DNA from: Acidobacteriota bacterium | GTDB lineage: Bacteria; Acidobacteriota; Terriglobia; Bryobacterales; UBA6623 | Direction: 5' to 3' | Assembly: GCA_016125275.1 (NCBI GenBank) | Contig: WGMB01000003.1 | Coordinates: 1,281,896-1,345,895 of the forward strand | Length of the DNA stretch: 64,000 bases | Shown: one piece after another, positions 4,934-13,831 of the stretch | Layout of the letters: each line of letters opens with the position of its first letter | How positions within the stretch are numbered: the first letter of the stretch is position 1 | Position numbers and translations under genes: made by a program | The notes under the pieces: generated by a model | What the model saw: only the letters and a program-made list of their open reading frames with translations | Database searches by the model: none | Told to the model about the DNA's origin: nothing

Positions 4934-5620
4934 CTACGGGCGGTCGACCAGCGCATAGAGCTTCTGCTTCAGCGCCCGATAGAGCTCCGGGTCCAACCGA
5001 GTTCCCAACTGGAACCGCCAAGTCCGCAGCTCGCCCCGATGCCCCGCGCGGGATTCCCGGGTATGCGCCTCCAGCTCGAAGGGGTCCGCCGACCAGACGC
5101 TCTCCAGCCCCTGCCCCAGCCGCCAGTCGCGGTCGTGCGCGTCGTCCTCGGAGTCAAACACCACACGGTCCTGATAGAACAGCAGCTCGCCCTGGCAGCC
5201 GCCCAGCCCATGCAGGTGCTTGGCCGACAGCCGCAGACGCGGCTCGTCAGCCTCTGCAATCACGCGGTCCACGGCCGGGCGCGCCACGTGGGCGGCGACG
5301 GCGCGGAACAGCTCGTCGCCGATCTCCCCGGTCTGCAAGGTGAAGCGCAGCTCACGGTCCTGCCCCAGCCGCCAGGTCACGTCCTCGTAGGTCAGCAGCC
5401 GCAGCTCGGTGCGGCTCACCCGGTCGAGCGTCTGGATCTCGCCGTACTCCCAGCGCAGCGGCGGCTTGTCGCCCTTCGGTTGGAACTCGACGGCCTCGGG
5501 CGTGAGCTCCAGGCGCCCGGCCTGGTCCCGCCACAGCGGCTTGTGCAGAACGGCGTCAAACGCGGCGCTCTGGGCCAGGGCCTGGGCGGCCAGCAGCAGG
5601 GTCAGAATAGCGAGCCTCAT
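4934..5620 (-). CDS. Exported protein of unknown function with two PH-like halves
   Basis: I do not recognise a named family. The 228-residue product has a signal peptide (MRLAILTLLLAAQALAQS). The mature part looks like a tandem duplication: each half has a short amphipathic start, a run of predicted beta strands rich in W, R and E, and ends in a helix (LFRAVAAHVARP in the first half, LYRALKQKLYALVD in the second). That pattern resembles bacterial PH/GRAM-like folds, but this is inference from secondary-structure reading only. The ATG at 5620 overlaps the stop of the cusA-like gene by 4 bp (ATGA), so it is translated with the metal pump and is probably the last gene of that operon. A periplasmic accessory role is possible but unproven. 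Confidence 0.7.
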   Translation of the reverse strand: MRLAILTLLLAAQALAQSAAFDAVLHKPLWRDQAGRLELTPEAVEFQPKGDKPPLRWEYGEIQTLDRVSRTELRLLTYEDVTWRLGQDRELRFTLQTGEIGDELFRAVAAHVARPAVDRVIAEADEPRLRLSAKHLHGLGGCQGELLFYQDRVVFDSEDDAHDRDWRLGQGLESVWSADPFELEAHTRESRAGHRGELRTWRFQLGTRLDPELYRALKQKLYALVDRP

Positions 5621-8600
5621 AGCGTCTCCTCCATCGCGTGAAAGCCGGTGAATCGCCGGCCCGGCGGCAGCCCTCGGCTGCGCCACAGGTAGTAGATGAT
5701 CGGGTAGACCAGCAGCACCACGACGCCCGAGGTCAGCACGCCGCCCACCAGCGGCGTGGCGATGCGCTTCATCACGTCGGCGCCCGTTCCCGTGCTCCAC
5801 AGAATCGGGAACAAGCCGATCATGTCGGTGGCGATCGTCATCAGGATCGGCCGCACGCGCTTGACCGAGCCGTCATGGATCGACTGCAACAGGTCGTTGC
5901 GGTCCCTCATGCGGCCGGCCGCCACGTACTTGCGGTAGGAGCCGTCGAGGTACAGCAGCAGCACGATGGCCGTCTCGGCATACAGCCCGGCCAGCGCGAT
6001 CATCCCCACCCAGACGGCGATGCTGAGGTTGTAGTCCAGCCAGTAGAGCAGCCACACCGCGCCGATCAGCGCGAACGGCACGCCGGCCAGCACCAGGCCG
6101 GTCTCCATCACGGAGCCGCGGTTGAGGTAGATGATCACGAAGATCAGCAGCAGCGTCAGCGGAATCACATAGCGCAGCCGCCGCTCGGCCCGCTGCATGT
6201 ATTCGTATTGGCCGCTCCAGGAGATCGTGTAACCCGGCGGCAGAGGGACCTTCTCGGCCACCGTCGCCCGCGCCGCCTCCACATAGCCGCCGATGTCGTG
6301 CGTGCGGATGTCCACGTAGACCCAGGCGTTGGGCTTGGCGTTCTCGCTCTTGATCGCCGGCGGCCCCAACTGGTAGCGGATGTCTGCGAGCTGCCCTAGC
6401 GGAATCTGCAAGCCGGTGGGCGTGGAGACCAGCACTTGCCGCAGCCGCGGCAGATCGTCGCGCAGCTCCCGGCTGTAGCGCAGGTTCACCGGATAGCGCT
6501 CCAGCCCCTCGACGGTGGTGGTGATGTTCATGCCGCCGATGGCGCTCATGATCGTCTCCTGCACGTCGTCGACGGTCAGCCCGTAGCGGGCGATGGCGCG
6601 CCGGTCGATCTCGAAGTCCAGGTAGTTGCCGCCCATCACCCGCTCGGCGAAGGCGCTCAACGTGCCCGGAACCTCCCGCACGGCGCGCTCGACCTGCTTG
6701 CCCAGGTCCTCGAGCACGGTCAGGTCCGGCCCGGCGATCTTGATGCCGACCGGCGTCTTGATGCCGGTGGAGAGCATGTCGATGCGGGTCTTGATGGGCA
6801 TCGTCCAGGCGTTGGTGACGCCGGGAATCTGCAAGGCCGCGTTCATCTCGTCGATCAGTTTGTCCGGCGTCATTCCGGGCCGCCACTCGCTCTCCGGCTT
6901 GAGCGAGATGGTCGTCTCCACCATCGACAGCGGCGCCGGATCGGTGGCCGTGTCGGCCCGGCCGATCTTTCCGAAGACGTGGTCCACCTCCGGGAATGTC
7001 TTGATGACCTTGTCCGTCTGCTGCAGCAGCTCGCGCGCCTTGGTCGCCGACAGGCCCGGCAGGGTGGTCGGCATGTAGAGCAGGTCGCCCTCCCACAGCG
7101 GCGGCATGAACTCCGAGCCCAACTGCCGGTACGGCATCACGGTGAGCAGCAGCGCCGCCGCCATGGCCGACAGCACCAGCCAGCGGAACCGCAGGCTCAG
7201 CTCCAGCAACGGCCGGTAGAGCGCGATGAGCAAGCGGCTCACCGGGTTGCGCTCCTCCGGCAGGATTCGCCCGCGCACCCAGTAGCCGGTCAGCACCGGA
7301 ATCAGCGTGACCGCCAGGATCGCCGCCGCCGCCATCGAATAGGTCTTGGTGAAGGCCAACGGCTGGAACAGCCGCCCCTCCTGCGCCTCCAGCGTGAACA
7401 CCGGCAGGAACGACACCGTGATCACCAGCAGCGAGAAGAACAGCGACGGCCCGACCTCCTTCGACGAGGCCCGGATGATCTCCCAGTGCGGCTTCTTGCC
7501 GCGGTCGGCGGCCAGGTGCTGGTGGGCGTTCTCCACCATCACGATGCCGGCGTCGACCATCGTCCCGATCGCCACGGCGATGCCGCCCAGCGACATGATG
7601 TTCGCGCTCACGCCCTGCAGCCACATCACGATGAACGCCATCAAGATGCCGATGGGCAGCGACAGGATCGCCACCGCGGCGCTGCGGACGTGCAGTAGGA
7701 AGACCAGGCACACCAGCCCCACGATCACGAACTGCTGCGTCAGGCTCGACTCCAGGTTGTCGATGGTGCGCTCGATCAGCGCCGTGCGGTCGTAGGCCGT
7801 CCGGATCTGCACGCCTTCGGGCAGGCCCGCCTGCACCTCGGCCAGCCGCTTCTTCACGGCCTGGATCACGCCGCGCGCGTCGGCGCCGTGGCGCACCACC
7901 ACGATGCCGCCCACCACCTCGCCCTCGCCGTCCCAGTCGGCGATGCCGCGGCGAATGTCAGGGCCCATCTGCACGTGCGCCACGTCCTCGAGCAGGATCG
8001 GCGAGCCCGAGGAATCCACGCCCAGGGCGATCTGGCGGATGTCGTCGAGCGACTCGATGTAGCCCAGCCCGCGGATCATGAACTCTTTCTCGGCGACCTC
8101 CAGCAGCCGCCCGCCGGCGTCGCTGTTGCTGCGGGCCACCGCGCCGCGGATCTTCGAGATGGGGATGTCGTAGGCCCTGAGCTTGTTGGGGTCCACGGTG
8201 ATCTGGTACTGCCGCACGAAGCCGCCCAGCGAGGCGACTTCTGAGACGCCGGGCACGGAGGTGAGCTCGTACTTGAGGAACCAGTCCTGCATCGAGCGCA
8301 GCTCGCTGAGGTCGTGCCGGTCGGATTCGAGCGCATACAGGAACGCCCAACCCACGCCGGTCGCGTCCGGTCCCAGCGACGGCCGCACCCCGGCCGGCAA
8401 CCGGCCCGCGGCGTAGCTGAGCGACTCCAGCACGCGGCTGCGCGCCCAGTAGAGGTCCGTGCCGTCTTCGAAGATCACGTACACGAACGAAAAGCCGAAG
8501 AACGAGTAGCCGCGCACGACCTTGGCGAACGGCGCGGCCAGCAACTGCGTGGTCAGCGGATAGGTGACCTGGTCCTCCACGATCCGCGGCGCCTGCCCCG

Positions 8601-8760
8601 GGTACTCGGTGTAGACGATCACCTGCACGTCGGAGAGATCCGGGATGGCGTCCAGCGGCGTATGCGCCACCGCGTACACGCCCGCGGCGGTCACGAAGGC
8701 GGTCAGCAGCAGCACCAGAAAGCGGTTGTCCAGGCACCAGTCGATGAGTCGGTCGAACAT
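5617..8760 (-). CDS. cusA: CusA-like heavy-metal RND efflux pump (Cu(I)/Ag(I) type)
   Basis: A 1047-residue inner-membrane RND transporter, full length for the heavy-metal branch, with the usual twelve-TM layout and two large periplasmic loops. The three methionines that bind Cu(I)/Ag(I) in E. coli CusA (M573, M623, M672) are matched at M563 (DLLYMPTTLPG), M613 (PLSMVETT) and M662 (RIDMLSTGIK), all with the same offset of ten. The proton-relay aspartate lies in TM4 at D403 (GTMVDAGIVMVEN). This supports a monovalent metal substrate over Zn/Co/Cd. It works as a trimer with the adaptor and outer-membrane channel encoded just upstream; the adaptor gene ends 13 bp before it. Confidence 0.93.
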   Translation of the reverse strand: MFDRLIDWCLDNRFLVLLLTAFVTAAGVYAVAHTPLDAIPDLSDVQVIVYTEYPGQAPRIVEDQVTYPLTTQLLAAPFAKVVRGYSFFGFSFVYVIFEDGTDLYWARSRVLESLSYAAGRLPAGVRPSLGPDATGVGWAFLYALESDRHDLSELRSMQDWFLKYELTSVPGVSEVASLGGFVRQYQITVDPNKLRAYDIPISKIRGAVARSNSDAGGRLLEVAEKEFMIRGLGYIESLDDIRQIALGVDSSGSPILLEDVAHVQMGPDIRRGIADWDGEGEVVGGIVVVRHGADARGVIQAVKKRLAEVQAGLPEGVQIRTAYDRTALIERTIDNLESSLTQQFVIVGLVCLVFLLHVRSAAVAILSLPIGILMAFIVMWLQGVSANIMSLGGIAVAIGTMVDAGIVMVENAHQHLAADRGKKPHWEIIRASSKEVGPSLFFSLLVITVSFLPVFTLEAQEGRLFQPLAFTKTYSMAAAAILAVTLIPVLTGYWVRGRILPEERNPVSRLLIALYRPLLELSLRFRWLVLSAMAAALLLTVMPYRQLGSEFMPPLWEGDLLYMPTTLPGLSATKARELLQQTDKVIKTFPEVDHVFGKIGRADTATDPAPLSMVETTISLKPESEWRPGMTPDKLIDEMNAALQIPGVTNAWTMPIKTRIDMLSTGIKTPVGIKIAGPDLTVLEDLGKQVERAVREVPGTLSAFAERVMGGNYLDFEIDRRAIARYGLTVDDVQETIMSAIGGMNITTTVEGLERYPVNLRYSRELRDDLPRLRQVLVSTPTGLQIPLGQLADIRYQLGPPAIKSENAKPNAWVYVDIRTHDIGGYVEAARATVAEKVPLPPGYTISWSGQYEYMQRAERRLRYVIPLTLLLIFVIIYLNRGSVMETGLVLAGVPFALIGAVWLLYWLDYNLSIAVWVGMIALAGLYAETAIVLLLYLDGSYRKYVAAGRMRDRNDLLQSIHDGSVKRVRPILMTIATDMIGLFPILWSTGTGADVMKRIATPLVGGVLTSGVVVLLVYPIIYYLWRSRGLPPGRRFTGFHAMEETL

Positions 8761-8773
8761 GGCTGCGGCCTCC

Positions 8774-10288
8774 TCAGTGCGAATGCCCGGCGTGGCCCTG
8801 CGGCGCGGGAGCCTGCGCGGGCGGCGGGGCCGGCATCTTCATCCCCGGCATCGCCTCGGGCGGCGCCGGCTCCTCCGCCGCGCCACGGTTCCCCAGCAGT
8901 TGGCGAATGGCCGCCTTGAGATTGCTCTCCGAGTCGATCAGGAACTGCGACGAGGTCACCACGGTCTCGCCCGCCTCCACGCCGCTCCGGATCTCCTGGA
9001 ATCCCCCGCCCGACGGCCCGATCTCCACCTCGCGCGGCTCGAACGCCCCCCGGCCGGCCTGCACGATCACCAAGCTGCGCTCGCCGCTATGGATCACGGC
9101 CTCTTCGGGAACCTTCACGGCGCCGCCGGCGGCGGGCGGACGCAGCAGCACATCGGCGTACATCCCGGGCCGCAGCTTCAGGTCCTGGTTGGGGATCTCC
9201 ACGAAGGCCGTCAGCGTGCGGCTCTTGGGGTCGAGCGCCGGCCCGAACAGGTTCACCCGGCCGCGCCAGGTGCGGCCCGGAAACGCCTCCACGCTCACCT
9301 GCACCGGCATCCCTTGGCGCACGTATTGCATGTCGCGCTCGTAGACGGCGACCTCGGTCCACAGCTTGGTGTGGTTGGCGATGGTGAGAATCGTCATCCC
9401 CGGCGTCACCCGCATGCCGTCCAGCGCCGGGGCGCTCTTCCACATCAGGTGCCCGGAGGCCGGCGCAAAGATCGTGACGGTGCGCTCGGGCGCTCCCTCG
9501 CGGGCGATCTTCTCAATCTGCTCCTCGGTCAGGTCCCAGTAGTGCAGCCGCTCCTGGGCGGAGGCGAACAGCGACTTGGCGCGCTCCACCGCCTCGGGAT
9601 AGGCGCCGGATTTCTCCAGCCGCGCCACGTAGTCACGCGCCGCCAGAAACTCCTGCTCGGTGGTCAGCAGCGCCGGGCTGTAGACCTCGAACAGCGGCGT
9701 CCCCTCATGGATGTGCTCGCCGATGGTGTTGTGATAGGACTGCTCGATCCAGCCCTCGTAGCGCGTGGTCACCGCATGGACCGACTCCTCGTCGTGAGCC
9801 AGCACGCCGACGGTCCGAATCTCGATGGGGATCGATCCGCGCTCGGCCACGGCCGTCCGCACGGCGAAGTTTTGCAGAAAGCTCGGGTCGACGCGCACGA
9901 TGTTGGCCCCCTGCGCGCCGCCGGCCTCGTCCTCGTAGACCGGAACCAGATCCATACCCATCGGCGATTTGCCGGGCTTGTCGGAGACGTAGTTGGGGTC
10001 CATGGGGGCGCGCCAGTAGAGGACCTTGCGCTCGCCCGCGGCCGGCTCTTCTTGGGCCGCGGCATCGGGATGCTCCACCGGCGTCAGCCGCATGCCGCAC
10101 ACCGGGCAGTCGCCGGGGTGGTCGCGCACGATGTGCGGATGCATGGCGCAGGTGTAGAGCCGCTTGGACGCGGCGGGCTCGGCCGTTGCAGCGCCCTGCG
10201 GAGCCGGCCGCATCGCCCAGAACGTGGCGCCGACGCCGACCGCCAGCCCCAGCGCCGCCCACAACATCGCCTTCGCGCTCGCGCTCAT
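8774..10288 (-). CDS. cusB: CusB-like periplasmic adaptor with extra metal-binding domain
   Basis: A 504-residue membrane-fusion protein anchored by an N-terminal hydrophobic segment (residues 7-25). Residues 43-72 form a heavy-metal-binding domain with YTCAMHP and CPVCGM (Cys47, His50, Cys61, Cys64). Residues 91-118 carry the CusB signature around DKPGKSPMGMDLVP. Next come the lipoyl/alpha-hairpin and beta-barrel regions. The tail ends in a Met/His-rich stretch (MPGMKM ... GHAGHSH) likely to bind Cu or Ag. It joins the pump to the outer-membrane channel and hands over metal in the periplasm. Its ATG overlaps the stop of the channel gene by 4 bp, so the two are translationally coupled. Confidence 0.92.
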   Translation of the reverse strand: MSASAKAMLWAALGLAVGVGATFWAMRPAPQGAATAEPAASKRLYTCAMHPHIVRDHPGDCPVCGMRLTPVEHPDAAAQEEPAAGERKVLYWRAPMDPNYVSDKPGKSPMGMDLVPVYEDEAGGAQGANIVRVDPSFLQNFAVRTAVAERGSIPIEIRTVGVLAHDEESVHAVTTRYEGWIEQSYHNTIGEHIHEGTPLFEVYSPALLTTEQEFLAARDYVARLEKSGAYPEAVERAKSLFASAQERLHYWDLTEEQIEKIAREGAPERTVTIFAPASGHLMWKSAPALDGMRVTPGMTILTIANHTKLWTEVAVYERDMQYVRQGMPVQVSVEAFPGRTWRGRVNLFGPALDPKSRTLTAFVEIPNQDLKLRPGMYADVLLRPPAAGGAVKVPEEAVIHSGERSLVIVQAGRGAFEPREVEIGPSGGGFQEIRSGVEAGETVVTSSQFLIDSESNLKAAIRQLLGNRGAAEEPAPPEAMPGMKMPAPPPAQAPAPQGHAGHSH

Positions 10289-11604
10289 CGTTGCACCCCC
10301 TCCAACTCAGCCAACGGAGCGCCGGTGGCGCGCTCCAACTCCGCCGTGGACTTCCAGTAGTCGCTGCGCAACTGCGCCAGCCCCAGCCGGATCTCGAGCA
10401 GCGTGCGCTGGCTGTCGAGCAGGTCCAGCACGCCCACGCCGCCGTTGGCGTACGAAGACTCGCCCGAGCGCAGCGCCTGCTCGGCCTGCGGCAGCAAGGC
10501 GTCCTCGAAGAGCTTCAGTTGCGATTGCATCGTCTCCAGGTCGAAGGCGATCGAGCGCACGTCGGCCTGCACCTGGTTCCACAGGCCGCGGTAGCCCTGC
10601 TTGGAGGCGAGGAAATTCTCGGTCGCCTCGTAGACGGCGGCGTTGTATTTGCGCCGGAAGATCGGCAAGTTCACGCCGACGGTGACGCTATAGATGTCCT
10701 TACCGTTCGACGGCGGCGGCATCGCCCGGCCGGCCTCGTCCTGCCGCTGCCGCACCAGGGTGTAGCCTGCGCCGACGGTCACGTCCGGGTAGGCCTGCTT
10801 GCGGGCCGCGTCAATGCGCTTCTCCTCGGTCTCGATGCGCAGCAGCGCCGCGGCCATCTCGGGGCGCCGTTCCTGAGCCGCCGCGTAGAGGCGTTCGAGG
10901 TCGAGCGAGAGCGGCGCGGGGACCGGCAGCTCCGCCGGCGGAATCGGCGTACGGGCTTCGCGGTCGCACAGCGCGTTGAGAGAGGCCTCCAGGTCCACCC
11001 GGCGGCGGCGCAACGTCTGCAGCCGGTTCATGCCGCGGGTGATCTCGGCCTGCAGCTTGATGGCCGCCTGCTGCAGGCCCACGCCCTGGCTGTAGCGCGC
11101 CTCGGCCAGCGTCTCGAAGTGCCGCAGGACCTCCAGATCCTCGGAAGTGATCCGCGCGGCGCGATCCACATAGGCCAGATCCCAGTAGGCGACCTTCACG
11201 CGGCGAGCGACCTCGTCGCGCTGCGCCTCGAACATCGCAGCCTTCGCCGCCGCCTCCTTCTCCGCCGCCTGCCCCTGCGTGCGCAGCTTACTGAGCCAGG
11301 GGAAGCGCTGCGAAATCGACACCATCGTCGACTGCGGCCCCACCCGGGTCTCCGGCGAGCGGGCGTACTGCGTCAGCCCGATCTGCGGATCGGGCAGCCC
11401 GGTCACCTGCGGCGCCTTCTGCGCGGCGGCCCGGTAGCGCGCGAACGCCTCCTGAATGGACGGGTTGCGCTCCAGCGCCTGCTCGATCAGCTCCTCGAGC
11501 GCGGGGCTCGCCGGTCCGGCCGCCGCCGCCCCGGTGATGCCGGCGGCCCAGCACACGGCGACGCGCGCCAAGGCTCCCGCCGCGGTAGTCCATGCAACTC
11601 TCAC
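10285..11604 (-). CDS. cusC: TolC-family outer-membrane channel of the metal efflux system (CusC-like)
   Basis: A 439-residue outer-membrane efflux protein with a signal peptide and the two-fold repeated, heptad-rich helices of the TolC/OEP family (for example residues 90-190 and 310-430). It forms the exit duct for the CusA/CusB complex. The start is GTG at 11604, preceded five bases earlier by a strong ribosome-binding site (GAAGGGAGG). That site can pair with the sequence just after the previous stop codon (see the inverted repeat at 11610-11688), so its translation may depend on the upstream small gene. The downstream adaptor gene overlaps by 4 bp. Confidence 0.9.
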   Translation of the reverse strand: MRVAWTTAAGALARVAVCWAAGITGAAAAGPASPALEELIEQALERNPSIQEAFARYRAAAQKAPQVTGLPDPQIGLTQYARSPETRVGPQSTMVSISQRFPWLSKLRTQGQAAEKEAAAKAAMFEAQRDEVARRVKVAYWDLAYVDRAARITSEDLEVLRHFETLAEARYSQGVGLQQAAIKLQAEITRGMNRLQTLRRRRVDLEASLNALCDREARTPIPPAELPVPAPLSLDLERLYAAAQERRPEMAAALLRIETEEKRIDAARKQAYPDVTVGAGYTLVRQRQDEAGRAMPPPSNGKDIYSVTVGVNLPIFRRKYNAAVYEATENFLASKQGYRGLWNQVQADVRSIAFDLETMQSQLKLFEDALLPQAEQALRSGESSYANGGVGVLDLLDSQRTLLEIRLGLAQLRSDYWKSTAELERATGAPLAELEGVQR

Positions 11605-11689: not shown

Positions 11690-12037
11690 CTAGATCAGCA
11701 GCGCGGAATGCGCGAGGTAGAGCAGGGGCGGAGAGGGAGAAGGCGCGGCTTCCGCCGGAGCCGCCTCAGCGCGGGCAAGCGCCGTGCCGGCCGCCAGGAC
11801 GGGCTCGCTGGCCGGCGGCGGCGTGGGGTCCGGGGCGACCGTCAGCACCGCATGGGAGTCCGACACGGCGCACAGCGTCAGGCACGAACGGTCAGTCTGT
11901 TCCTGATGGCAGCAGGCGTGCGCCGCCGAGCGCAGCGTGACGCCCAAGGCCACCGCTTGGCCGGCCAAGGCCACCACGGCGACGGCCAGCGCCAGCGCAA
12001 CCACCACGCCCCGACTTGCTTTGGCAGGGACCCTCAT
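11690..12037 (-). CDS. Small exported Cys/His-containing protein leading the metal efflux operon
   Basis: A 115-residue product with one N-terminal hydrophobic segment (residues 10-30, signal peptide or anchor) followed by a Cys/His cluster (HACCHQEQTDRSCLTLC near residues 37-53) and an Ala/Pro-rich linker ending in LYLAHSALLI. Such small proteins occur at the head of metal-resistance operons (compare DUF2946-like proteins), but I cannot place it firmly. The thiols and histidines suggest periplasmic metal binding. The ATG at 12037 is chosen because it lies just after the MerR-type promoter: transcription would start near 12044, leaving a leader of only about seven bases. It precedes cusC by 85 bp with a structured spacer. 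Confidence 0.65.
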   Translation of the reverse strand: MRVPAKASRGVVVALALAVAVVALAGQAVALGVTLRSAAHACCHQEQTDRSCLTLCAVSDSHAVLTVAPDPTPPPASEPVLAAGTALARAEAAPAEAAPSPSPPLLYLAHSALLI

Positions 12038-12050
12038 CGAAACCGACTTC

Positions 12051-12082
12051 AGTATAGACCCTGGAGTGCGCTCCAGAGTCAA
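12051..12082 (-). promoter_or_regulatory. MerR-family-type promoter of the cus operon
   Basis: Reading leftwards: -35 TTGACT (12077-12082), a 20-bp spacer, and -10 TATACT (12051-12056). A near-perfect 24-bp dyad fills 12057-12080, with inner arms CTGGAG and CTCCAG and outer GACT/GGTC; one position breaks symmetry. Good hexamers, a 19-20 bp spacer and a dyad between them are the hallmark of promoters activated by MerR-family metal sensors through DNA untwisting. The half-sites resemble the ZntR/PbrR type (ACTCTGGAG) more than the CueR type (ACCTTCC). No merR-like gene is in the window. Confidence 0.8.
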
Positions 12083-12116: not shown

Positions 12117-13154
12117 CTATGCCGCGGACACGAGCTGCTCTTCAAAGAACCGATCGACGGTTTCGAGCACGTGCTCCGGCCCTTCGGCGCGGTAGATCGC
12201 CTTGCGCAGTTGCGAGCCGTTGCGGACGCCGCGAGTGAAGTAGGTGGCAAACTGCTTCATTTTGCCGCTGACTTCGCCGGAGATCTTGTCCTGCTTCTCC
12301 ACCAGCAGCTCGTAGTAGTCCTTGATCATGCGGTAGCGGTCGGCCTCGGTCGGCTCGTCGTAGCGTCCGGTGGCCACGTACTGCTGGATCTGGCGGAAGA
12401 TCCAGGGGTTCGAGGCGGCCGCCCGGCCGATCATCACGCCGTCGCAGCCGGTGTGCTCGAACATCCGCACGGCGTCTTCGGGCGAAAAGACGTCGCCGTT
12501 GCCGACCACGGGGATCGACACGGACTGCTTGAGGGCGGCGATCCAGTCCCAGTTGGCCGTCCCCGAGTAGCCCTGCGCCCGCGTGCGGCCGTGCAGCGCC
12601 ACGCCCTGCAATCCCACCTGCTCGGCGATCTTGCCCACTTCGCAGCAGACGATGTCGTCGTCGTCCCAACCGGTGCGGAACTTGCACGTGAACGGAATCG
12701 AGACCGCCTTGCGCACCGCCGTCAGAATCTCTTCGATCAGCGGCAGGTCGCGCAGCAGCCCCGAGCCGCCGTTGCACTTGACGACCTTCTTGACCGGGCA
12801 GCCGAAGTTCATGTCCACGCCGTCGAAGCCCAGATCCTCCACCACGCGGGCGGCGTCAGCCAGCACCTGCGGGTCGGACCCGAACAGTTGCGCCACGATG
12901 GGGTGCTCGTCGGGCTCGAAGTAGAGGTAGTTGAAGCTGCTGCGCCGGTGCGGCTTCTTGCCGCCCTTGCGCCGCCGGTCGTCCGCCAGAATGCCGTGCG
13001 AGCTGGTGAACTCCGTCATGATCAGCCCGCAGCCGCCGAGGTTGCGGATGAAGCGGCGAAACACCGTGTCGGTCACCCCGGCCATGGGGGCCAGGGTCAC
13101 GGCCGGAGACAGCTCCAGCGGGCCGAAGCACAGCTTCTGCGGAATCGAAGGCAC
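12117..13154 (-). CDS. dusB: tRNA-dihydrouridine synthase (DusB-like)
   Basis: A flavin enzyme that reduces uridines to dihydrouridine in the tRNA D-loop. It has a TIM-barrel with FMN-binding APMAGVTD at the N-terminus, the catalytic-cysteine motif NFGCPVKKVV, HGRTRAQGYSG, and phosphate-binding GNGDVFS and GVMIGRAA, then the C-terminal helical tRNA-recognition domain. I chose GTG at 13154, which has TACACT seven bases upstream and fits the family start; a TTG at 13181 would add nine residues and overlap the preceding stop codon. It is downstream of the PD-(D/E)XK-like gene on the same strand. The cus promoter begins 35 bp after its stop. Confidence 0.92.
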   Translation of the reverse strand: MPSIPQKLCFGPLELSPAVTLAPMAGVTDTVFRRFIRNLGGCGLIMTEFTSSHGILADDRRRKGGKKPHRRSSFNYLYFEPDEHPIVAQLFGSDPQVLADAARVVEDLGFDGVDMNFGCPVKKVVKCNGGSGLLRDLPLIEEILTAVRKAVSIPFTCKFRTGWDDDDIVCCEVGKIAEQVGLQGVALHGRTRAQGYSGTANWDWIAALKQSVSIPVVGNGDVFSPEDAVRMFEHTGCDGVMIGRAAASNPWIFRQIQQYVATGRYDEPTEADRYRMIKDYYELLVEKQDKISGEVSGKMKQFATYFTRGVRNGSQLRKAIYRAEGPEHVLETVDRFFEEQLVSAA

Positions 13155-13177
13155 TGTTTTGAGTGTAACCCGGCCGC

Positions 13178-13831
13178 TCAATCCCGAAAACTCCGCCGCA
13201 ACCGCTCCGGCACGTCGAACGCCGGCAGCATCTCATGCAGCAGCGGGTCGCGCATGAAGTCCACCACCCGGAAGCACAAGCCCTCCAGGTGACTGCGGGC
13301 CGAGGGGTCGCAGCCTTGCAGAAACCACCACACCGGGATCACCGGCGCGTGGCCGGCGATCCTCGGGTTGAGCAGCTTGCAGTCCTTGTCCACCTGCTTG
13401 GCCAGGTGGCCGGACGACAGCGTGGACTGCGTCACCCGCACGTAGTTCTTCGCCTCGATCAGGAACGCCACCGACCCTCGGCTCGAGCGCGGCGTGCGCA
13501 TCAGGAACAGGATGTCCATCTGGCGCACCGGGTAGCGGTCGGCCACGCCGCGGCCGGCCCACAGCTCGTACTGCAGCATCAGGTCGCCGCGGCCTTCGAA
13601 GGTGGCGAAAAAGTGATGCAGCGTCGCCGCGACGACGGCCTCGCCCACCGCGCCCTTCTCCTGGATCGCCGCCAGCCCGTGCCGCAGCATGTTCGACTCC
13701 TCGATCAGGGCGCGGGCGTCGTCGAGGTCGAACTGCTCGAACAGACGCCGCAGATTCTCCCTGCGCTCGGGCGTCCGGATCCGCAGTAGAGCCTCCGTCT
13801 GCCAGGAACGCAGCTCTCCGAGTCCCGCCAT
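13178..13831 (-). CDS. PD-(D/E)XK nuclease-like protein of unknown function
   Basis: A 217-residue cytoplasmic protein without signal peptide. The central part has the arrangement of a PD-(D/E)XK nuclease core: GEAVVAATLHHFF helix, Asp in VRQMDILFLM, and E-A-K in VAFLIEAKNYVR about 20 residues later, followed by a Gln/Lys-containing helix (HLAKQVDKDCK). That is the pattern of NERD-like and restriction-endonuclease-like folds. I do not recognise a specific family, and no methylase or defence genes are next to it, so a restriction role is not supported. It sits directly before dusB on the same strand. Confidence 0.68.
   Translation of the reverse strand: MAGLGELRSWQTEALLRIRTPERRENLRRLFEQFDLDDARALIEESNMLRHGLAAIQEKGAVGEAVVAATLHHFFATFEGRGDLMLQYELWAGRGVADRYPVRQMDILFLMRTPRSSRGSVAFLIEAKNYVRVTQSTLSSGHLAKQVDKDCKLLNPRIAGHAPVIPVWWFLQGCDPSARSHLEGLCFRVVDFMRDPLLHEMLPAFDVPERLRRSFRD

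Follow-up and report, generated by a model that had tools for sequence, protein, structure and literature searches.

Evidence that a MerR-type promoter with a zinc-type operator drives a Cus-type copper/silver efflux operon in an Acidobacteriota bacterium

Which regulator, and which metal, does an operator of the zinc type answer to when it stands in front of an efflux operon of the copper/silver type? Predictions of the metal of a MerR regulon routinely rely on the operator half-site and on the residue at the Ser77/Cys79 position of the regulator. Here, both predictors disagree with the gene context, and the same is true across an Acidobacteriota lineage (19 loci retrieved). The original prediction, made from the window (the whole 64-kb stretch of DNA that was analyzed), offered two ways out: either the regulator has a changed half-site preference, or the pump answers to another metal. 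The features concerned are the following.

12117..13181, minus strand: dusB, tRNA dihydrouridine synthase (TIGR00737 above cut-off), directly upstream and bounding the promoter region
12051..12082, minus strand: MerR-type promoter, exact match, with -35 TTGACT (12082-12077), a 20-bp spacer and -10 TATACT (12056-12051)
12058..12079, minus strand: 22-bp operator ACTCTGGAGCGCACTCCAGGGT, 9/11 pairs
11690..12037, minus strand: Cys-rich ORF of 115 aa, signal-peptide-like, first operon gene; no Pfam or NCBIfam family
10285..11604, minus strand: CusC-like outer-membrane efflux protein (Pfam OEP)
8774..10288, minus strand: CusB-like adaptor (Pfam HlyD_D23 and HMBD) that has two heavy-metal-binding domains and ends in a tail rich in Met and His
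5617..8760, minus strand: CusA-like heavy-metal RND pump (TIGR00914 above cut-off)
4934..5620, minus strand: secreted-looking ORF, its start codon and the stop of cusA overlapping in ATGA; in no family of Pfam or NCBIfam

The boxes and the spacer called in the original prediction were recovered exactly. The 32-mer TTGACTCTGGAGCGCACTCCAGGGTCTATACT at 12051-12082 occurs as a single copy in the window and zero times in shuffles, and it has the layout of a MerR promoter, its boxes being 20 bp apart, within the 19–20 bp of the type, with a dyad in the spacer. The dyad GACTCTGGAGCGCACTCCAGGGTC between the boxes forms 10 of 12 pairs, a score matched by ~1 in 10,000 random 24-mers of the window; the claim of a near-perfect 24-bp dyad stands as far as the pairing goes, but the core operator is 22 bp long and reaches 24 bp only when the flanking G/C pair is included. 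As had also been predicted, the promoter lies immediately before the Cys-rich ORF and the efflux trio, on the same strand and wholly inside the short gap between the dusB stop (12117) and the ATG of the Cys-rich ORF (12037).

The zinc-type fit proposed for the operator agrees with its 18/22 identity to the ZntR consensus (PMC1526738), and the 20-bp spacer holds an operator of the ACTCTGGAGTCGACTCCAGAGT type of ZntR, with nearly identical half-sites. The E. coli ZntR-zntA promoter thus has the spacer and the geometry in common with the promoter studied here, although its target is a Zn/Cd/Pb P-type ATPase and ZntR has the full Cys set, whereas here the target is a Cus-type operon; zntR is not autoregulated (PMC1526738). 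CueR operators, on the other hand, have ACCTTCC-type half-sites and 19-bp spacers (PMC1526738), whereas the half-sites here are of the CTGGAG/CTATAG type, 20 bp being the spacer length. The further operator copies that the original prediction would have searched for are absent from the genome in exact form, as the sole exact match to the ZntR-like consensus ACYCTGGAGNNNACTCCAGRGT in 7.55 Mb is the operator of the cus promoter. A loose promoter pattern gave 11 matches in the genome, six of which were discarded for want of a dyad and five kept. Across the class, 31 of 399 genomes contain the full promoter pattern with one mismatch allowed, whereas its reversed control matches in none of the 399, which argues that the cus-type pattern is not due to chance. 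The feature is real and functional-looking, and its mechanism is an ordinary one.

The predicted transcription start, at ~12044, would leave a leader of just a few bases. Both copper-type MerR promoters of the genome (12036-12044 and L012:11818-11827) end a few bases before a start codon, as do several MerR promoters in other Acidobacteriota, and this short distance suggests that the mRNAs from these copper-type promoters are leaderless or nearly so.

That the operon served by this promoter is of the Cus type is evident from its genes, which run in the order Cys-rich ORF, cusC, cusB and cusA. The pump is a heavy-metal RND protein with the CusA methionine triad: its M563, M613 and M662, the three methionines already noted in the original prediction, align with M573, M623 and M672 of E. 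coli CusA, which bind Cu/Ag. Furthermore, the top PDB matches of the pump are all CusA (1216 bits, versus 527 for the CzcA-like ZneA), and the top NCBIfam match of the adaptor is CusB (PRK09783), under its cut-off. The ORF at 4934-5620 probably closes the operon, with its translation coupled to that of cusA, and dusB is not part of the efflux system. Control of a Cus-type Cu/Ag operon by a MerR-type promoter with a ZntR-like operator is, in our judgment, well supported.

Could the Cys-rich ORF be a reading artefact? This is unlikely, because counterparts occupy the same position before CusC in many Acidobacteriota; one more lies on a verrucomicrobial contig. The counterparts, which belong to no Pfam or NCBIfam family, begin with a signal-like stretch, contain several Cys and close with a hydrophobic segment, mostly ending in LI, and members of the family directly before cusC lie at 11690-12037 (minus strand) in the window and at L211:6250-6627, L212:107-469, L109:6081-6566 and L130:1918-2268. 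Pfam and NCBIfam, searched at lax thresholds, returned only chance matches to the protein, which is possibly a periplasmic Cu binder in the place of CusF.

The E. coli cusCFBA operon is under the CusRS two-component system. A second cusCBA of the present genome, at C7:182746-189385 (G000; L014, L061), encodes a CusA 77% identical to that of the window and adjoins a divergent pair of histidine kinase and sigma54-type response regulator; no MerR promoter was found when this paralog was checked for one. The two operons encode paralogous pumps under different control.

Which MerR protein would act on the cus promoter? The original prediction had stated that the regulator gene is not nearby, which is true of the window, but MerR regulators exist elsewhere in the genome. 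The prediction was staked on the presence of such genes, and the genome search returned seven, three of them with the metal-site cysteines of metalloregulators: one gene coupled to copA on contig C14 and two genes on contig C7. None of the MerR proteins of the genome passes the ZntR equivalog cut-off (best 131 bits, 143 needed), and the C14 protein is also under the CueR cut-off (TIGR02044). The C14 gene (C14:877824-878279) lies 416 kb from the cus promoter and overlaps by four bases a copA gene whose product is a copper P1B-1 ATPase, with CPC in TM6, YN in TM7 and two N-terminal GMTCxxC domains, which scores 604 bits with TIGR01511 (copper; cut-off 397). The merR-copA promoter TTGACTCTATAGCAGACTCCAGACTCTACAAT agrees with the cus promoter at 24 of 32 positions, with a contiguous ACTCCAG in common, compared with 21 of 32 for the three C7 promoters. 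Its operator half-sites, ACTCTATAG and ACTCCAG, are of the same kind as those of the cus operator, although the left half has AT where the cus operator has GG, a difference that counts against the C14 regulator. The two C7 regulators have mercury-like surroundings (a MerT-HMA transporter and a thioredoxin-like gene) and CCGGAC-type operators.

The link between this MerR and copA is conserved. Orthologs of the C14 MerR (59–63% identity) are present in 4 of 17 other genomes of the family, with copA always next, so that synteny holds in 5/5 family genomes having a MerR of this type. In a wider Acidobacteriota sample, obtained by a scan of genome contigs at ≥50% identity (the 19 loci), copA lies directly downstream of merR in 17; of the two remaining loci, one is on a contig that stops just past merR and the other is without copA within 7 kb. 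The promoter half-sites of this subfamily are ACTCTATAG, ACTCTGTAG/C or ACTACAGGGT, and the right half in the G001 ortholog, ACTCCAGGGT, is that of the cus promoter itself. The closest precedent for the proposed pairing is the locus L109, in which merR-copA is divergent from Cys-rich-cusC-cusB-cusA and each direction has its own MerR promoter with a 20-bp spacer and a right half of ACTACAGG. Similarly, a heavy-metal RND gene lies ≤7 kb from the merR locus in L101 and L106, and the gene of a His-rich protein in L111 is preceded by another promoter of this MerR type, the second of that locus. In three loci (L104:7487, L105:7486 and L102:3715) a second MerR-type promoter is found between merR and copA, which would make the regulator and the pump separately tunable in some Acidobacteriota.

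On the other hand, the cus operons of 25 other genomes gave no MerR promoter in a scan that required TTG at -35 and TA...T at -10 and could miss divergent ones. Since no recognizable MerR promoter precedes the other cus operons of the family, not even the one of G004, in which merR-copA is present, the link between this MerR and cus is not conserved among close relatives, which weighs against the C14 regulator; the MerR wiring of the cus operon appears to be local to the lineage.

Taken together, the likeness of the merR-copA operator, the copA synteny and the L109 locus favor a different half-site for the same metal (Cu/Ag), the first of the two alternatives of the original prediction; for the second, a pump for a metal other than Cu/Ag, no support was found. 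With a probability of roughly 60%, the regulator of the cus promoter would be the copA-linked MerR of contig C14, with Cu(I)/Ag(I) as the signal and CopA and CusCBA in one regulon. A dimer of the MerR type would sit on the dyad between boxes that, at 20 bp, are too distant for ordinary use; when bound by metal, it would twist the DNA, make both boxes accessible to RNA polymerase and so turn on the Cys-rich-cusCBA operon. The same MerR would control itself and the Cu+-ATPase CopA, so that a single Cu(I)/Ag(I) signal would join export from the cytoplasm (CopA) and from the periplasm (CusCBA). We infer the binding of this MerR to the cus operator, its metal, its activating role and the geometry of its site from sequence alone.

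Is the sensor itself compatible with copper? The C14 MerR was aligned to E. coli CueR and ZntR, whose sequences agree exactly with the PDB, CueR over its full length and ZntR over residues 43-141, the solved part. It has Cys81 at the position of ZntR Cys79 (Ser77 in CueR), Trp116 where the first loop Cys would be and, as the last Cys, Cys127 (Cys120 in CueR). The three residues are conserved in the copA-linked subfamily, with Trp replaced by Phe once. They differ from the Ser77/Cys112/Cys120 set of CueR, and, with the first loop Cys absent, they do not make up the Cys triad of CadR/PbrR (positions 79, 114 and 123); judged by this conserved Cys81/Trp116/Cys127 pattern, the metal site is neither that of CueR nor a full ZntR/CadR/MerR site. 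We infer that Cys81 of one subunit and Cys127 of its partner hold Cu(I) between them, in a linear two-thiolate site that spans the dimer. However, Cys at 79/81 is usually a sign of divalent sensing (PMC11591864), which speaks against a Cu/Ag signal for this protein, and its closest solved structure by sequence is CadR. In CueR, the S77C mutation yields a protein that responds to ions of either kind (PMC11591864). On a Chthoniobacterales contig (L130:168-7697), a MerR with the same Cys79/Trp/last-Cys pattern is encoded upstream of Cys-rich-cusCBA and on the same strand, which links this type of sensor to Cus pumps beyond the Acidobacteriota.

The recognition helix points in another direction. 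Among the 81 regulator-operator pairs collected from the retrieved loci, GG in both halves was seen in 5/14 operators whose regulator has Asp at the main specificity position and in 1/50 of those with Glu. Similarly, of the 26 CTGGAG/CTCCAG-type sites of the class whose merR was readable, 25 have a regulator of the Asp type. This bias agrees with the published correlations, a G-Asp pairing in ZntR-like regulators and a T-Glu correlation (PMC5045206). The copA-linked MerR has Glu at this position, which counts against it. The residue after its YE is Lys, reported with ZntR-type sites, and within its subfamily GG half-sites occur at 4/10 sites if Lys or Ser follows YE and at 0/16 if Arg does, in a small and related sample.

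Asp occupies the specificity position in only one metal-type MerR of this genome, the mercury-type protein at C7:162722-163135, which also has the full Cys triad. As CTGGAG/CTCCAG operators are usually read by an Asp-type helix, in this genome the rule points to the C7 protein, and the Cu/Ag-type pump might then be under a divalent sensor (Hg, perhaps Zn/Cd/Pb), acting alone or in cross-talk with the copA-linked MerR. An ortholog in G200 with an identical helix, GVKIDTLRYYERQG, has the operator TTGACCCTGGAGCGTACTCCAGGGTTTAAGCT, identical to the cus site at 27/32 and 20/22 positions, and action of a CadR on copA is known in Rubrivivax (PMC11591864). In the present genome, however, the operator of the C7 protein is ACCCCGGACCTAGGTCCGGGGT, both half-sites of which are unlike those of the cus operator; the gene precedes the MerT-HMA transporter and the thioredoxin-like gene rather than copper genes; no cus operon under a C7-type regulator was seen in the loci examined; and even the paralogous cusCBA on the same contig is without a MerR promoter. 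We consider the C7 protein an unlikely regulator, though a serious contender, and rank the copA-linked MerR above it because gene context and L109 outweigh the recognition rule, if not decisively. The two candidates differ by defined residues.

The regulator could also be encoded in the missing part of the assembly (completeness 97.57%), as the class often has Asp/Lys-type MerRs with operators of the CTGGAG/CTCCAG type; such MerRs nearly always lie directly behind their own operator, and the absence of a second such operator from the 7.55 Mb makes this improbable. Slightly less credible still is that the pump exports a divalent metal (Zn/Cd/Pb) under an ordinary ZntR-like regulator, as the identity of the operator to the ZntR consensus would suggest, since the pump has the methionine triad and only CusA among its top structural matches, the adaptor is CusB-like, every MerR of the genome falls short of the ZntR cut-off and the operator precedes no other operon of the genome. 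Least probable is that the promoter is a relic or constitutive, with the operon served by dusB read-through or by another system: related cus operons do without such a promoter and the C7 paralog adjoins a two-component pair, but the boxes, spacer and dyad are intact and matching promoter pairs exist in relatives.

To return to the copA-linked MerR, how would its regulon compare with known systems? The CueR regulon of enterobacteria (copA, cueO) likewise involves MerR activation of Cu+ export, CopA included, with the regulator gene far from some targets, and it differs in half-sites, spacer and sensor residues, as described above. With CadR/PbrR, the merR-copA subfamily has in common an AVET-type recognition helix and CTATAG/CTACAG half-sites; unlike them, it lacks the first loop Cys, has a Cu+-ATPase as neighbor and uses a 20-bp spacer instead of the usual 19 bp of CadR (PMC1526738). 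In Rubrivivax gelatinosus, CadR and CopR cross-talk at copA, so that a divalent-type MerR acts on Cu+ export genes as proposed here; the sharing of copA by two regulators was established there by experiment (PMC11591864), whereas our proposal is drawn from sequence. It is conceivable, though at somewhat less than even odds, that the Acidobacteriota have a Cu(I)/Ag(I) MerR class of their own, arisen from the divalent (CadR/ZntR-like) branch, with a Cys81/Cys127 two-thiolate site and CadR/ZntR-type half-sites, which controls CopA and Cys-rich-CusCBA. If so, the half-site and the Ser77/Cys79 rule would both fail as predictors of the metal. Since the zinc-type operator probably answers to an atypical sensor with a link to copper, the metal cannot be read from the DNA address by itself.

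No direct account of a copper MerR regulator in Acidobacteria came up in a search of the literature. One survey places CueR homologs in Pseudomonadota only and, for marine Acidobacteriota as for several further phyla, lists just copper systems of the two-component and ECF kinds (PMC10141476), a picture that a MerR-CopA-Cus regulon, if true, would alter. A further MerR branch among the retrieved loci (L036-L046, L052 and L054) has only the Cys79 equivalent and no C-terminal loop Cys (...PRGKQARLLE...), and TTCCA/TGGAA operators are frequent in it.
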